Assembly (NCBI GenBank): GCA_021787985.1
Contig: JAJYLG010000024.1
Coordinates: 1 to 41,182 of the forward strand
Source of the DNA: Chloroflexota bacterium
GTDB lineage: Bacteria; Chloroflexota; Dehalococcoidia; DSGV01
Reading direction: 5' to 3'
DNA length: 41,182 nt
Shown here: in pieces, positions 2,709-8,567 of the stretch
Layout of the letters: each line of letters begins with the position of its first letter
Numbering within the stretch: the stretch's first letter is position 1
Position numbers and translations under genes: made by a program
Notes under the pieces: generated by a model
Database searches by the model: none
What the model was told of the DNA's origin: nothing
The model's input: only the letters and a program-made list of their open reading frames with translations

Positions 2709-3395
2709 ATGCCTCAGGTGGAAAGTCGTGTCGTTCTGCCGCTGGTGGTGGTCCTCGGGACCTTCTTCATCGGCTGGTATCTCGTCGGCAACGAGATCAT
2801 GCGACGCCATGCGCGTCGGCTTGCCATCTGGAGCAAACGCACGCTCGACCCGCTGGGCGGCACGCAGGCAGTGCAGTGGCTGACGTTGCACGCCTTCCGG
2901 CTGGAGGTGGAGGGGGCCGCGGCGCCCTTCCAGCGCGGCTCGCTGACGGGCCTGACCGAGTCGTGGGACGTGCCCATGATCTGGCTGTGGAATCGCCTGC
3001 GCGGGCGGCGTGACATGGTCCTCGCGCAGATGACGCTGCACCAGCAGCCGCTCTGGGGGTTCGAGGTGTACCGGCCGGGGTCCTTGCTCAGCAAGGACTC
3101 GCGCCATCTCGCCCGGCTCGAGGGATGGGAGGAGCAGCCGCTCGGCGAGCTCATGGTCGCCGCGGCGGGCGACGCGCCACGCCAGCTCGCCGGCCGGCTG
3201 GTGGCGGAGCTGGGCGACTACCGCTCGCGACTGGTCCGTCTGGCGGTCCGCCGTGCCGGCCCGCACCTGACGCTGGCGCTTACCGTGCCGGAGCGTGGGC
3301 GCCCTGACCCGCTGGACTTCCAGCGCCTCCTGCAGCGGGTGGCGCGGGCGGCGCTGCGGCCCGAGGCGGATCTCCGTCCGCCTCCCGGCGCCTAG
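2709..3395 (+). CDS. Membrane-anchored protein of unknown function
   Basis: A 228-residue protein that I do not recognise. It has one N-terminal membrane segment at about residues 8-27 (VVLPLVVVLGTFFIGWYLVG), followed by a basic cytoplasmic-type stretch and a soluble domain rich in Arg and Leu. There is no signal-peptidase site and no motif of an enzyme family. Codon use matches its neighbours, which supports a real gene. It converges on the ArsA-like ATPase gene at 3392, and the two stop codons share the palindrome CTAG (3392-3395), so there is no room for a terminator between them. A functional link with the ATPase operon is possible but rests only on position. Confidence 0.6.
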   Translation: MPQVESRVVLPLVVVLGTFFIGWYLVGNEIMRRHARRLAIWSKRTLDPLGGTQAVQWLTLHAFRLEVEGAAAPFQRGSLTGLTESWDVPMIWLWNRLRGRRDMVLAQMTLHQQPLWGFEVYRPGSLLSKDSRHLARLEGWEEQPLGELMVAAAGDAPRQLAGRLVAELGDYRSRLVRLAVRRAGPHLTLALTVPERGRPDPLDFQRLLQRVARAALRPEADLRPPPGA

Positions 3396-4411
3396 CCGCT
3401 TGCTTGTGCGAAGACCGCCGTCGCCAGCCGGCCGAGCATCTCGACCCCGCGCACCTCGTTGTCGAACAGTGGCACGATGGCGCGCACCCGGCCGTCGAAC
3501 CGCTCCCAGATCGTCTGCATGTGCTCGTTCTGCATCGCCAGCCGGTTGCGGACGAACTCGGCGCTGTCCGCCCCGACGACGGATTCATCGATGCGCATGT
3601 TGACGATCACGCCGCCGACCGGGATGCCGAACTCGTGGAACCAGTCGATGAAGCGGCTGATGACGGCGATCGGCAGTGCTTCGGGCAGGGTGACGAAGAA
3701 GAAGGCCGTCTTCTGCTCGTCGGTCAGCAGCGCACGGGCGTGCTCCATCCGCTGCTGGAAGTCCATCAGGTAGTCCATCAACGGGTCCTGCTCCTTCTTC
3801 TTGGAGAAGGAGAGCATCTGGCGTAGGCTCTGGGCCTCTTCGCGGCTCTTGACCATCTTGTTGACCCAGAGCGAGTAGACCTTGCTCATGCCGAGCAGGC
3901 GGCGGGCGTTGGCGGTGGGCGCCGTGTCGAACACGTAGACGTCGTACTCGTCCTTGAACATGAGGTCGATCATGTTCTCGAACATCGCCGACTCCTCGAA
4001 AGCCGGGTTCATGGTCGCCGTCTCGACGAACTCGTCGGCCTTGGTGCTGATCTCGGCGAACTTGAGGAACCACTGGATCTTGTCACGGATCTCGCGCTTG
4101 GAGCGCTCGATGGTCTCGCGGGTGTCGATCTCGTACGCCCAGAGATTCGCAACGCCCGTCACCGGGGCGTGCTGGCCGAAGACGTTCTGGTCCAGCAGGC
4201 CGGAGAGGCTGTGGACCGGGTTGGTGGACGCGAGCAGCGTGCGCCGGCCGCTCCGGGCCGCCCAGAGCGCCGCGGCGCCGGCCATGACCGTCTTGCCCAC
4301 GCCACCCTTGCCGCCAAAGAAGACGTACTTGAGCTGCGGGTGCTGCTGAACGTACCCGGCCATGTCGAGCGTGACTCGTTGCTGGGCAGTGGACGCAGGG
4401 AGGCCGGTCAT
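3392..4411 (-). CDS. ArsA/Get3-family ATPase, subunit with Asn in place of catalytic Asp
   Basis: A 339-residue P-loop ATPase of the ArsA/Get3 (SIMIBI) class. The deviant Walker A motif GGKGGVGKT is at 33-41. Switch I reads STNPVHSLSG (62-71) where the family has STDPAHSLSD: the Asp equivalent to yeast Get3 Asp57, needed for ATP hydrolysis, is Asn64. The second motif is DTAPTAN (162-168) where the family has DTAPTGH. The CxxC zinc site of Get3 and the ArsA metal-binding cysteines are absent. The protein should bind ATP but may hydrolyse it poorly. Its ATG overlaps the stop of the paralogue upstream (ATGA), with GGAGGAG ten bases before it, so the two are probably made in equal amounts and form a heterodimer, replacing the A1-A2 tandem of ArsA. 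It is the last gene of the cstA cluster. What it energises or inserts is unknown. Confidence 0.9.
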   Translation of the reverse strand: MTGLPASTAQQRVTLDMAGYVQQHPQLKYVFFGGKGGVGKTVMAGAAALWAARSGRRTLLASTNPVHSLSGLLDQNVFGQHAPVTGVANLWAYEIDTRETIERSKREIRDKIQWFLKFAEISTKADEFVETATMNPAFEESAMFENMIDLMFKDEYDVYVFDTAPTANARRLLGMSKVYSLWVNKMVKSREEAQSLRQMLSFSKKKEQDPLMDYLMDFQQRMEHARALLTDEQKTAFFFVTLPEALPIAVISRFIDWFHEFGIPVGGVIVNMRIDESVVGADSAEFVRNRLAMQNEHMQTIWERFDGRVRAIVPLFDNEVRGVEMLGRLATAVFAQASG

Positions 4412-5418
4412 CGCTGGCTTGCTCCTCCGTACATGATGTCCGCCAGCCGCTCGATGGCCGGCAGCCCGGTGATGTCCCGCTCGAGCTCAGGGACGTAGGC
4501 CAGGACCTCATCGCCGAAGGTCTGGCGAATCTCGCCCAGGTAGCGCTGCTGCATGGCGATGCGGTTCTTGAGGTACTCGGGCACGTTCTGCTCTGCCAGC
4601 TCGGCCGGGACGACCCGGTTGACCACGTAGCCCGAGGTCGGCACGTCGAACCTGCTGAACAGCTCAGCGGCATTGCGCGTATCGACGATGATCATCTCCT
4701 CCGGCACGACGACGAAGAAGAAGGCCGTCTTCTCCTTATCGGTGAGAATGCGCGACGAGGCGTTGATGCGGGACTTGATGTCCAGCAGCTCGGCCAGGAT
4801 CTGGTCCTCCTCGGTGAGCTTCTGGCGCTTCATCACCTTGGACACCTGCTCGTACTCGCGCATCTCCTCCCGCAGCTTGGTGATCTTGTTGATCCACTCG
4901 TCGTAGACCTTGGCCATGGAGAGGTAGTAGAGCGCGTGGCCGAGCGGGACCAGGTCGTAGATGTAGTAGTCGTAATCACCCGCGACCACGATGTCGACGA
5001 CGGCGTCGAAGATGGCGCTCTCCTCCATGGCCGGCTCGGCGCTGGCGGCCTGGATATAGTGCTCGATCTCTTCGGGAACCTCGGAGAAGCCGTACATATC
5101 CAGGATCTTCTGGCGGATCTCGGCCTGGTACGCCTTGATGTGGCTGTCAGCGTCGATCTCTTGCGCCCAGAGGTTCTCCATGATCTTGACGGGGCCCTTG
5201 CCGAAGATGTCCTGCTGGAAGATGTCCGACAAGCTGGCCTGCGGGTCGACGGAGAACACGAGCACGCGATGGCCCTGGCGGGCAAGCCAGTACGCGGTCG
5301 CGGCCGAGAAGGTCGTCTTCCCGAGTCCTCCCTTACCGCCGAACATGATGTAGCGCCGCTCGGGGTGCTCGTTGAAGACTCGGGCGAGATCGGTCTGCTC
5401 GCGTGTCTGCGGGGCCAC
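4408..5418 (-). CDS. ArsA/Get3-family ATPase, probable catalytic subunit
   Basis: A 336-residue paralogue of the next gene. Walker A is GGKGGLGKTT at 27-36. Switch I is SVDPQASLSD (56-65), keeping the catalytic Asp (Asp58) but with Ala for the usual His. The second switch motif reads DLVPLGH (155-161), keeping the final Gly-His lost in the partner. Thus the two proteins have complementary changes, the pattern of a heterodimer in which each subunit keeps part of the active machinery. The VNRVVP motif near the C-terminus is also typical of ArsA. Start is GTG 5416-5418 with GAGGAG six bases upstream. It lies 43 nt after the second small membrane protein and overlaps the following ATPase by 4 nt. 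In ArsA and Get3 this class drives, respectively, an arsenite carrier and membrane-protein insertion; which mode applies here is not known. Confidence 0.92.
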   Translation of the reverse strand: MAPQTREQTDLARVFNEHPERRYIMFGGKGGLGKTTFSAATAYWLARQGHRVLVFSVDPQASLSDIFQQDIFGKGPVKIMENLWAQEIDADSHIKAYQAEIRQKILDMYGFSEVPEEIEHYIQAASAEPAMEESAIFDAVVDIVVAGDYDYYIYDLVPLGHALYYLSMAKVYDEWINKITKLREEMREYEQVSKVMKRQKLTEEDQILAELLDIKSRINASSRILTDKEKTAFFFVVVPEEMIIVDTRNAAELFSRFDVPTSGYVVNRVVPAELAEQNVPEYLKNRIAMQQRYLGEIRQTFGDEVLAYVPELERDITGLPAIERLADIMYGGASQR

Positions 5419-5461
5419 GGCAATCTCCTCGCGGTTGATGGGGGCGCCCGTCGCAGGGCCC

Positions 5462-5764
5462 TTAGCCGAGCGTGTCGGTGATGTCGCGCTCCCGCAGCAT
5501 GCGTCGCTTCCAGGTGCTCACCTGCGGGACGACGTACGGCAGCAGCCGCAGGCTGTAGTAGGGCGGGAGGATCGGCACTCCTAGCAGGTCGCCCATGGTG
5601 ATCAGGATGAACAGGTGCTCCATGCTGGCCCGCGTGCGAATCGCATAGCGGGACATGTCGTGGGAAGCCATGCCGTACATGACGTCCCTGGCGGCGCCGA
5701 ACGCGCCCAGGAATCGCTTCCGCTTCGGCTGAGGCTCGGGTGATTGCGCCTGTTCCGTTCCCAT
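5462..5764 (-). CDS. Small membrane protein, paralogue B of the cstA-ATPase cluster
   Basis: A 100-residue protein of no family I can name. A basic, Pro/Gln-rich N-terminus (1-20) leads to a helix-like stretch, then a hydrophobic core at about 50-81 with the motif MGDLLGVPILPPYY (57-70), and a basic tail WKRRMLRERD. The same motif and tail occur in the neighbouring 122-residue protein, so the two are paralogues. The core is long enough for one membrane span or a Pro-kinked hairpin. ATG 5762-5764 is preceded by ACGAGGTCACC. It sits between its paralogue (25 nt upstream) and the ATPase pair (43 nt downstream), all on one strand. I infer a membrane partner of the ATPases or of CstA. It does not obviously resemble YbdD/YjiX, the small partners of E. 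coli CstA and BtsT. Confidence 0.75.
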   Translation of the reverse strand: MGTEQAQSPEPQPKRKRFLGAFGAARDVMYGMASHDMSRYAIRTRASMEHLFILITMGDLLGVPILPPYYSLRLLPYVVPQVSTWKRRMLRERDITDTLG

Positions 5765-5788
5765 GGTGACCTCGTCGACTCCTCTGGC

Positions 5789-6157
5789 CTACAGGCCGTG
5801 CAGATCGAACTCCTCGCTTTCGAGCGGGTGGCGCTCGCGCAGCACGCGCCGGCGCCATGCCTCGACACTCCCGACGAAGTACGGGACGAGGCGCAGCGCG
5901 TAGTACGGCGGCAGAATCGGCACCCCGAGCGTGTCTCCCATGACCATGAAGATCAGCAGGTTCTCGAGGTCCGCACGGACATGAGCCGCGTGCCGTTCAA
6001 ACTCGAGACCGGTCGCGCCGTACAGCATCTGGCGCAGCGCCCGCGCGGCCGCCCGCGCCCGCCTGGAGACGGCTTGACGGGACTGGGGGGCGGCGCGCTG
6101 CATGTCCTGCGGCCGCTCGCCGCCCCCGTGCTCGACATGTCGCGGATGTGGGGACAA
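5789..6157 (-). CDS. Small membrane protein, paralogue A of the cstA-ATPase cluster
   Basis: A 122-residue protein with an Arg/Ala-rich N-terminal 45 residues, a hydrophobic core at about 66-95 with MGDTLGVPILPPYY (73-86), a basic WRRRVLRER segment and an acidic C-terminus. It shares the core motif and the W-R-R-x-L-R-E-R segment with the 100-residue paralogue downstream. The first codon is a TTG at 6155-6157, one base after the cstA stop. AGGAGGT lies inside the end of cstA (6171-6177), 13 bases upstream, a little far but strong. An in-frame ATG at 6101-6103 would give a 104-residue protein closer in size to the paralogue. Either way its translation follows directly from cstA. Function is unknown; membrane location is likely. 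Confidence 0.72.
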   Translation of the reverse strand: MSPHPRHVEHGGGERPQDMQRAAPQSRQAVSRRARAAARALRQMLYGATGLEFERHAAHVRADLENLLIFMVMGDTLGVPILPPYYALRLVPYFVGSVEAWRRRVLRERHPLESEEFDLHGL

Positions 6158-6158
6158 G

Positions 6159-7979
6159 CTACGCCGTCACACCTCCTGGAGCAGGCGCCGGCTCCACGGG
6201 CCGCTCGCGATAACGCTGGAACGCGCGGTAGCCGTCCCAGCCAATGAAGAGCGCGGCAACGAAGAGGATGAGCCCGATGATGATCGTCACGAGACTCCCG
6301 ATGACCGCGATCTCGTGTCCCGCGACGCCCCACTGCTTGACGAGCACGATCTTGTAAAGATTGTAGAGGATCACCAGGTCAGCGGCCATGGTGGTGACGT
6401 ACATGAACACGGCCGGAATGCCGGCGTAGAGCGGATTGCGCCGGGTCGAGGCAAGCCAGACCGTGACCACCAGCAGGCTTAGCGCGGCCATGAGCTGGTT
6501 GGCGGCACCGAAAAGCTGCCAGATGTAGATCCAGGTGCCGGAGATGACCAGCAGGAAGGTGGCCGCCATGCTGACCAGCGTTCCCACGTGGATGTTCTTG
6601 AAGATCGGGCTGCGGTCGCCCAGGCCCTCGGCCAACGTGACGCGCATCAGCCGGAACACGAGCTGCACGACCGTGATCACGATGACCACGAAGGCCGCGA
6701 AACCGAGCGCGGTGCCGTAGGTCAGCGGCACGCGGAAGATGTTGAGGAAGTCGCCTATGCCCTGCGCGAAGCTGGCCACTGGCGTTGCGCCGGGCTTGGC
6801 GGCCACCGCGATCGCCAGCAGCGAGAGCAGGCCAAGCGTGAACTCGCCGAACATCGCCCCGCCGCCCACGGGAAGCATGTCTTCCTCGTTCTCGATCTGG
6901 CGCGCGGTGCCGACGGACCCAATCAACGCGTGCCAGCCGGATATCGCTCCACAGGCGATGGTGACGAACAGCATCGGCCAGAGCGGTTGGATTTGCCCGG
7001 AAGCCCGGATGCTGGCCGGTCCACCGAAATGGGTGAACCCGGCGATATTGAAGGTGGATAGGTCGTGCTTGATGAAGAACGCGAGGAAGGCGCCCAGGCC
7101 GGCGAAGACGACCGTGAGCCCCGTGATCCAGAAGCCGATGTAGTTCACGGGCTGCGCATAGCGCCAGATCGGCAGGATCGCCCCGAGGTAGCAGAAGCCG
7201 AACAGGAAGAACAGCCAGAACACGAAGCTGATCGTGATCGGCACGCTCTGCTTGCCCGCCGGGTTCAGCGGGTTGAGCACCGTGACGATTCCGCCGGGCC
7301 TGAGGTCGTTCAGCCAGGTGTTGAAGTTCTTGAACGTCGTGGCGACCGGTCCGGTCGCGCTGGCGTTGAGGAAGATCGCCAGCAGGGTGCCGCCCACAAC
7401 GATCAACGTGACCGGGATCAGGTCCATCTTCATCCGGTAGAGCATGTGGCCGGCGGCGAGCCCGAGCACGGCCAGGGCCACGATCCCCAGCGGCACGCGC
7501 GGGTCGGTGAGCGTGCCCGCGACGATGTTGCCGAACGCCCCGGCGATGAGGAGCAGGTAGAAGAAGATGAACAGCAGCAGCAGCCGCCGCGTCCGCGGGT
7601 GGATCAGCCGGTGGGCGGTGGCCGACAGCGAGTTCCCCTCGTTGCGGACGGATACCACGATGGCGCTGTAGTCGCTGACCCAACCCATGAACATGACGCC
7701 CAGCACCAGCCAGATCAGGCTGGGCACCCAGCCCCACAGGGCCGCCGCCGTGATGGCCCCGACGATGGGGCCGGCGGCCGCGATCGACTTGAAGTGGTAG
7801 CCGAACAGCACGTTTCGGTTGGTGGGCATGAAGTCCACGCCGTCCATGTAGAGGCGCGCCGGCGTGGCGCGCTTCTTGTCCGCCTGGATCACCGTCCGGT
7901 CGATCCGGCGTGCGTAGAATCGGTAACCCAGGTAGATGGCGAGGACACCGATGATGATCGCTACCAGCGTGTTACCCAA
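6159..7979 (-). CDS. cstA: CstA-family peptide/pyruvate carrier
   Basis: A 606-residue polytopic membrane protein of the carbon-starvation CstA family, shorter than E. coli CstA (about 700). Family features are clear: GYRFYARRID near the N-terminus, the DGVDFMPTNRNVLFGYHFKS stretch at about 46-65, AAGPIVGAI, GWVSDYSA and GAISGWHALIGSVGTARQIE in the middle. E. coli CstA and BtsT import pyruvate or peptides with protons, and this protein probably acts as a similar secondary carrier. The start is TTG 7977-7979, with AAGGGGGG nine bases upstream; the first membrane span begins right after it. It is the first gene of a minus-strand cluster with two small membrane proteins and two ArsA-like ATPases, a context I do not know for characterised cstA genes. 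acs upstream suggests shared use in carbon scavenging. Confidence 0.93.
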   Translation of the reverse strand: MGNTLVAIIIGVLAIYLGYRFYARRIDRTVIQADKKRATPARLYMDGVDFMPTNRNVLFGYHFKSIAAAGPIVGAITAAALWGWVPSLIWLVLGVMFMGWVSDYSAIVVSVRNEGNSLSATAHRLIHPRTRRLLLLFIFFYLLLIAGAFGNIVAGTLTDPRVPLGIVALAVLGLAAGHMLYRMKMDLIPVTLIVVGGTLLAIFLNASATGPVATTFKNFNTWLNDLRPGGIVTVLNPLNPAGKQSVPITISFVFWLFFLFGFCYLGAILPIWRYAQPVNYIGFWITGLTVVFAGLGAFLAFFIKHDLSTFNIAGFTHFGGPASIRASGQIQPLWPMLFVTIACGAISGWHALIGSVGTARQIENEEDMLPVGGGAMFGEFTLGLLSLLAIAVAAKPGATPVASFAQGIGDFLNIFRVPLTYGTALGFAAFVVIVITVVQLVFRLMRVTLAEGLGDRSPIFKNIHVGTLVSMAATFLLVISGTWIYIWQLFGAANQLMAALSLLVVTVWLASTRRNPLYAGIPAVFMYVTTMAADLVILYNLYKIVLVKQWGVAGHEIAVIGSLVTIIIGLILFVAALFIGWDGYRAFQRYRERPVEPAPAPGGVTA

Positions 7980-8095
7980 TGCACTTTCCCCCCTTCGTCA
8001 GAAGAGACTCCTGGCGGCAGACCGATGAGGAACGCTCCCCCTCGCGCCGCCCTGGTCAGACCTCGGGCCGGTACTGCGGTGCTCGGGTGCTGATC

Positions 8096-8113
8096 GGTAA
8101 CCCTCCCGTTACC
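8096..8113. promoter_or_regulatory. Inverted repeat upstream of cstA
   Basis: GGTAAC (8096-8101), six bases, GTTACC (8108-8113): a perfect 6-bp dyad. It overlaps the stop of the thioredoxin-fold gene and lies about 115 bp before the cstA start. It has the shape of an operator for a dimeric repressor of the cstA cluster, but a weak terminator hairpin is also possible. Confidence 0.35.
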
Positions 8114-8567
8114 CTCCTTCCCCAGCCAGCCGCTGATCCGTGCGCACGCCGAGACGCTCGGCGACCGCGCGCTCTAGCCGCTCCTGGTCGAAGCCTGCGA
8201 TGCGCTGACGCCCATCGATGACGAAAGAAGGGAAGCGGCGCACGCGATGGCGGAGCGTCATGACGACACCCTGGATGGAGGCCGCGTCCACCACGCGCAC
8301 GCGCATGCGGTCGCCGTAGCGGCCGGCCGCGCCGCGGACCCAGTCGCCAATCCTGGCGTACTCGGCTGCGAGTTCCGGAGGCAGCAGCCCAGCGCGGCGC
8401 TGCTCGGCGTGCAGCCGACGGCCGATGCCAAGCTCGTTCCAAACGATCTCGCAGTGCTGACAGTGGAAAAACTCGGTGGGGGCGAAGGCGATCACCTCCA
8501 CCGTCACGACGGGCGCCGGTGCTACCGCCGTGGCCGTGCCGGCTATAGTTCGTATCACACGCATCAT
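8109..8567 (-). CDS. Thioredoxin-fold protein with CxxC motif
   Basis: A 152-residue protein with a thioredoxin-like active site FFHCQHCEIVW (Cys36, Cys39) after a beta strand VTVEVIAFAPTEF, and a second part FPSFVIDGRQRIAGFD, where Phe-Pro is the cis-proline loop next to the active site. The insertion between them (about 45 residues, Arg/Ala-rich) is longer than in plain thioredoxin. There is no clear signal peptide, so it is probably a cytoplasmic thiol oxidoreductase or electron carrier. Two ATG codons lie in tandem (8565-8567 and 8562-8564) behind AGGAG. A good sigma-70 promoter precedes it. It lies between acs and the cstA cluster on the same strand. The exact subfamily is not clear to me. 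Confidence 0.7.
   Translation of the reverse strand: MMRVIRTIAGTATAVAPAPVVTVEVIAFAPTEFFHCQHCEIVWNELGIGRRLHAEQRRAGLLPPELAAEYARIGDWVRGAAGRYGDRMRVRVVDAASIQGVVMTLRHRVRRFPSFVIDGRQRIAGFDQERLERAVAERLGVRTDQRLAGEGG

Follow-up and report, generated by a model that had tools for sequence, protein, structure and literature searches.

The window analysed here, a stretch of 41,182 nucleotides of contig JAJYLG010000024.1 from a Chloroflexota bacterium (class Dehalococcoidia, assembly GCA_021787985.1), carries on its minus strand a gene cluster encoding, in this order, a CstA family transporter, two small related proteins of the CstX/cory-CC-star type and two ArsA/Get3-like subunits, here termed D and N (Table 1). 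There is a 4-nt overlap between the D and N reading frames, the two small proteins are paralogues sharing 42% identity, and the operon reaches approximately position 7979, beyond the interval 3392-5418 which was first flagged and which covers both ATPase genes only. Convergent to the ATPase pair, a plus-strand gene (2709-3395) encodes a 228-aa protein for which no Pfam or NCBIfam match was found and whose relatives lie beside the pair in several other Chloroflexota loci (L082, L004, and L007 among them).

Table 1. Features of the CstA-ArsA locus in the window.
Feature	Position	Strand	Basis
ArsA/Get3-like subunit N	3392..4411	-	339 aa ORF; PF02374 3e-66; TIGR00345 match
Subunit N codon Asn64 (Get3 Asp57 position)	4220..4222	-	ORF, position mapping and conservation
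ArsA/Get3-like subunit D	4408..5418	-	336 aa ORF; PF02374 1.5e-75
Subunit D codon Asp58 (Get3 Asp57 position)	5245..5247	-	ORF and residue table
CstX/cory-CC-star-like small protein 1, 100 aa, motif GDLLGVPILPPYYSLRLLPY	5462..5764	-	NF041419 7e-9, below curated cut-off; alignment; model
CstX/cory-CC-star-like small protein 2, 122 aa	5789..6157	-	NF041419 5e-10, below curated cut-off
CstA family transporter, 606 aa, upstream gene	6159..7979	-	PF02554 3e-101; conserved neighbour
Thioredoxin-like small protein with HCxHCE motif, beside CstA	8109..8567	-	FHCQHCE in window

Both subunits were assigned to the ArsA/Get3/TRC40 family by whole-length matches to PF02374 (224 bits for N and 255 bits for D, against a cut-off of 24.3) and by matches to TIGR00345 (219 and 240 bits, respectively, cut-off 135). 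An AlphaFold2 model of N (39 orthologues; pLDDT 85, pTM 0.83) was found to resemble Get3, also in the helical region of the client domain, and a Foldseek search with this model returned the TRC40 protein of M. thermautotrophicus as the best match (E 3e-26) together with M. jannaschii Get3, followed by tail-anchor-bound yeast Get3. By sequence, the closest solved structures are likewise archaeal Get3/TRC40 proteins (M. thermautotrophicus 3zq6 and M. jannaschii 3ug7; E about 1e-53 for N and 1e-61 for D), which share with N and D a full-length alignment, the P-loop, and the predicted fold, but which are encoded by one gene, form symmetric homodimers and carry the switch I Asp, a DTAPTGH motif and a CxxC motif; to our knowledge, they have no linkage to CstA. 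Neither N nor D contains a single cysteine, and the CDFC site of archaeal Get3 is replaced by AEFV in N and by PEYL in D. The thiol sites of ArsA are thus absent, as is the CxxC zinc site which Get3 tail-anchor targeting factors have at the dimer interface. An assignment as arsenite-pump ArsA (TIGR04291) was rejected: N and D, both single-domain and without cysteine, scored 106 and 99 bits against a cut-off of 650. No arsenic-resistance gene was found among the neighbours examined, CstA adjoining the pair instead.

The two subunits differ in their switch motifs. Switch I reads STNPVHSLSG in N, with Asn64, and SVDPQASLSD in D, with Asp58, and switch II reads DTAPTAN in N and DLVPLGH in D, as given in the preliminary description of this DNA. 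The same description had placed the asparagine at the position of Get3 Asp57, and this is borne out by two alignments: in the yeast Get3 chains engineered to D57N (4xtr and 9ns5), which read STNPAHN, the Asn is residue 57 of the 4xtr chain, and N itself aligns to the archaeal Get3 motif STDPAHS. The switch I Asp positions the attacking water (PMC10248533), and the D57N form of Get3 binds ATP without hydrolysing it, thereby trapping Get3 with ATP (PMC12506534), in agreement with the earlier statement that the change blocks hydrolysis.

The conservation of this difference was assessed in one shared alignment, with Get3 numbering used for all switch positions. Position 57 is Asn in 54 of 54 non-redundant N proteins and Asp in 54 of 54 non-redundant D proteins, as well as in all 66 other ArsA/Get3 domains of the alignment (26/26 CstA- or cory-linked single ArsA proteins and 40/40 other ArsA domains). 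Each orthologue group thus keeps its own residue, a check which had been proposed at the outset, and no orthologue of the Asn subunit was found to carry Asp; the orthologue motifs are S[TLF]NPVHSL for N and S[VT]DPQASL for D. The named orthologues were fetched by scanning a single genome of each species with the patterns GGKGGVGK and FEESAMF[ED]; these do not include the switch I position, so that the Asn/Asp conservation was not selected for. The bacterial members recovered in the scan include Chloroflexota, records named Deltaproteobacteria (Syntrophaceae, Desulfobacterales, and others), Acidobacteria, Gemmatimonadetes, Acetobacteraceae, and Symbiobacterium, and the archaeal members include Bathyarchaeota, Thermoproteota including Pyrobaculum, and Methanoperedens. 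N-like proteins were found in 37 of the 301 Chloroflexota genomes searched, the window's own counted. With the catalytic switch I Asp replaced by Asn throughout, N stays in the ArsA/Get3/TRC40 fold family but would fall outside its active ATPases.

Since the window stems from a draft metagenome bin, and its closest N orthologues lie in other classes of Chloroflexota, the pair being present in none of the sampled genomes of its own class, one could suspect a sequencing error, a pseudogene or, within a single genome, lineage-specific drift. The same Asn recurs, however, in open and highly conserved frames across 54 non-redundant proteins of several lineages of bacteria and archaea, which rules out chance, pseudogene or sequencing error as the origin of Asn64 and makes this explanation as a whole exceedingly improbable. 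The GC content of positions 4001-8000 is 65%, compared with approximately 70-72% for most of the window; the locus may have been acquired horizontally, or the contig misbinned. Many members of the N/D set are also derived from metagenome bins; the residue conservation is unaffected by either circumstance.

Asn64 is accompanied by further changes in N. Across the 54 N proteins, T32 is replaced by Val, Ala or Ile and D64 by Gly, Ser or Asn, G171 is replaced by Ala in 53/53 readable sequences, and H172 is replaced by Asn in 51 of 53, His being present in the other two; these four positions are otherwise kept or nearly so across the alignment. N retains the signature Lys, the Walker Lys, Thr31, and the adenine Asn272 in 54/54 proteins and the Walker-B Asp166 in 53/53 readable ones. 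The signature and Walker lysines of the GKGGxGK motif, which correspond to K35 and K40 in N and to K29 and K34 in D, are invariant in both groups (54/54 each). In D, residues D57, D64, G171, and H172 are kept in 54/54 proteins, T167 is changed to Leu or Met, and H60 of switch I, present in 54/54 N proteins, is changed to Ala. By these alignments, N and D have lost largely complementary parts of the switches, both keeping the residues which nucleotide binding is expected to need. Taken together with the properties of Get3 D57N (PMC12506534) and the role of the switch I Asp (PMC10248533), the residue losses suggest that N is hydrolysis-deficient. It is very unlikely that N is instead an active ATPase which orients the water by another group, with the Asn irrelevant to catalysis: N is conserved as strongly as D and has the His60 which D has lost, but it also lacks G171, His172, and D64, which active relatives keep, and the D57N change leaves Get3 inactive (PMC12506534). 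Hydrolysis is likely to be carried out by D, which is itself non-canonical (T167 to Leu or Met, H60 to Ala) and could be slow or need CstX or CstA to fire. The division of labour put forward in the preliminary description, with one subunit binding and the other hydrolysing ATP, thus fits the pattern in N, in which switch residues are lost and nucleotide-binding residues kept, and is likely but less straightforward for D.

The history of the pair was examined in a maximum-likelihood tree of 117 domains obtained with a careful search. High support (ultrafast bootstrap/SH-aLRT) was found for N (100/99), for D (100/99), for N and D together (100/100), and for the single CstA-linked ArsA proteins (100/98); a clade joining the latter directly to N and D was not recovered in this tree. 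Since N and D are sister clades, one old duplication is indicated, with the Asp and Asn residues fixed since, and a single duplication with a single Asp/Asn split, maintained ever since, would account for the data. A split into archaeal-type and bacterial-type sequences recurs within both N and D, and the distance matrices of the two subunits are correlated (r = 0.96, 46 loci), a correlation which is also expected from shared descent and is no proof of contact.

The gene neighbourhood is equally constant. D lies directly upstream of N in 28 of the 29 N loci from named genomes, the exception being cut by a contig end; one or two cory/CstX genes accompany the pair in 28 of these 29 loci, and CstA was found within the fetched stretch in 24. 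Of the 301 Chloroflexota genomes, 35 carry both N and cory, 2 carry N only and 2 cory only, one of the last two having a D gene at a contig end. These observations bear on the possibility that each subunit forms a homodimer of its own with a distinct role, that of the Asn subunit being nucleotide-locked and regulatory. The two subunits are only about 35% identical to each other, and each could in principle self-pair like the single CstA-linked ArsA. Yet their strict 1:1 adjacency, the fixed D-then-N order, the overlap of the genes in the window, and the parallel trees suggest a stoichiometric complex, and the losses in N and D hit opposite sets of switch residues, so that separate homodimers are considered quite unlikely.

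The single ArsA proteins of Bacilli, Halobacteria, Gammaproteobacteria, and others are encoded with one cory protein and usually with CstA, and carry the switch I Asp. The cory/CstX proteins of such operons in Bacilli (L113, L118, L127, and L136) end in Cys-Cys right before the stop codon; the small proteins of the window can be aligned to them but, like those of the paired operons in general, lack the terminal CC, which may be confined to the symmetric, single-ArsA form. Against the cory-CC-star model NF041419, the window proteins scored 35-39 bits, below the curated cut-off of 80, and CstX and cory-CC-star are taken here as one protein by size and context. The predicted CstX structure, of modest confidence (pLDDT 75, pTM 0.44), consists of helices around a Gly-Val-Pro-Ile-Leu-Pro-Pro-Tyr-Tyr motif and gave no meaningful structural match in the PDB. 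Additional cory/CstX-like genes were observed downstream of N in some loci (L089:7184-7519, L018:1228-1497, and L096:5998-6288), the family being often duplicated around the pair. The HCxHCE thioredoxin-like protein found beside CstA in the window, which matched no Pfam or NCBIfam family, is likewise encoded beside CstA in six further loci (L078, L082, L088, L101, L053, and L034); it may be another component of the system, handling redox or metals, but its membership is uncertain.

An asymmetric heterodimer could also serve as a membrane-protein chaperone or insertion factor which takes up the hydrophobic segment of CstX (or of CstA) and delivers it to the membrane, as Get3 does with tail-anchored proteins, rather than energising transport. 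This would fit the Get3-like model of N, with its client domain region and its tail-anchor-bound Get3 matches, as well as the one hydrophobic stretch of CstX, which ends 31-40 residues from the C-terminus. However, this stretch is short, a conserved Gly-Asp and prolines break it up, and its hydropathy is about 1.5, making it a poor tail anchor; the zinc-binding CxxC of Get3 is absent from the cysteine-free N and D, and a dedicated chaperone for a single, locally encoded client would be unusual. Delivery of such a segment is therefore regarded as unlikely.

Related cases of asymmetry and of the Asp-to-Asn change are found in several known systems. The D57N form of yeast Get3 (4xtr and 9ns5) and an Asn form of Giardia Get3 (7spy) carry the same change at the same position as the natural N subunit; D57N is a laboratory change, introduced by structural biologists to trap the ATP-bound state and present in both subunits of a homodimer, whereas in the N/D pair the Asn occurs in one subunit only and other switch residues are changed too. 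The Giardia protein was considered as a second natural case, but 7spy reads STNP and two further entries of the same protein (7spz and 7sq0) read STDP, and the Asn was taken as engineered. In Actinomycetota, BagA and BagB (Rv3679/Rv3680; 6bs3-6bs5, the two proteins having been crystallised together as chains A and B in 6bs3) are encoded by adjacent ArsA-fold genes and have non-equivalent ATP sites. They differ from N and D in that BagA has a Glu in switch I (EVEGRQ) and BagB keeps the Asp but is without the signature lysine (G[ASP]GGVGKT), in having no CstA or CstX, and in being distant in sequence (E about 1e-7). N and D scored 41-57 bits against NF053622 and NF053621 (cut-offs 400 and 521) and are not BagA/BagB by curated score; with the asymmetry at other residues, a simple equivalence of the two pairs was ruled out. 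In Actinomycetota loci (L162-L165), BagA-like proteins have the switch I Glu, and the BagB-like proteins adjacent to them are without the signature lysine. BagA/BagB shows that ArsA-fold heterodimers with unequal sites exist elsewhere, and from the residues concerned its asymmetry looks like a solution parallel to that of N/D. E. coli ArsA (1f48) resembles the arrangement proposed for N and D in that two non-identical ArsA domains form a pseudo-dimer, which is believed to power a membrane transporter, but both of its halves keep the Asp (STDPAS and TSDPAA), and it is one fused chain with arsenite thiol sites. Heterodimeric ABC exporters with a degenerate site combine one catalytic and one binding-only site to drive a transporter; as their fold and machinery are unrelated, they provide an analogy only.

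Operons of the CstA-ArsA-CstX(-CstY) type were already described in 2010, in clusters 14-18 of an ArsA tree, and comprise the same gene set as the window, with single-domain ArsA homologues, CstA, and CstX (Castillo and Saier, PMC2963123). The window locus shares the features of these CstA-linked ArsA proteins, its subunits being single-domain and, at 336 and 339 aa, close to the approximately 330 aa typical of these clusters, and adjacent to CstA and to two CstX/cory genes. In the available text of that study, Cluster 15 includes two adjacent ArsA pairs in CstA-CstX operons, designated 'Par' (31% identity) and 'Sth' (25% identity), the switch I Asp of single-domain proteins is said to be one that 'can be substituted only by N', and ArsA is suggested to energise CstA through CstX (PMC2963123). 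The codes Par and Sth are read here as a Pyrobaculum species and Symbiobacterium thermophilum, and the N/D pair was found in both genera (L106 and L100). The operon type and the adjacent ArsA pairs are therefore prior art; in the available text, the Asn is not tied to one member of the pair, the division of residues is undescribed and the word 'heterodimer' does not occur (PMC2963123). The fixed Asn in one partner, the extra switch losses, and the tree seem to be new with respect to the papers available.

The probable arrangement, as judged from sequence and gene order, is an asymmetric heterodimer in which N binds and D hydrolyses ATP, acting together with CstX and CstA. N and D would pair as an obligate heterodimer of the Get3/ArsA type, with N as a nucleotide-binding, 'degenerate' subunit which holds ATP, helps dimer closure, and lends its signature lysine to the site of its partner. 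The competent site would thus combine the P-loop and Asp58 of D with the signature lysine of N, one ATP being split per closing and opening cycle, and the movement of the dimer would be relayed, probably via CstX, to CstA. Within this asymmetric arrangement, energisation of CstA by the N-D cycle is held to be about as probable as the alternatives of membrane targeting or regulation taken together. A point against such coupling is that E. coli CstA works without any ArsA, so that ATP is no general requirement of CstA-type transporters. It is tentatively suggested that the operon encodes a primary-active CstA transporter, driven by an asymmetric ArsA-type heterodimer of which one ATP site never hydrolyses. 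A degenerate-site heterodimer would then have been built independently of ABC exporters in the SIMIBI/Get3 fold, having become fixed a single time and been retained in both bacteria and archaea.

In symmetric Get3/ArsA homodimers, it is hard to test why ATP sites come in pairs and whether hydrolysis is required at both. The N/D pair represents a natural and long-kept version of the laboratory D57N change, present in exactly one subunit, and the single-ArsA operon of Bacilli, Halobacteria, and Gammaproteobacteria provides a matched control which would be naturally symmetric if N and D do form a heterodimer. The pair also strengthens the proposal, made in 2010, that the widespread CstA transporter acts together with an ArsA-type ATPase (PMC2963123).
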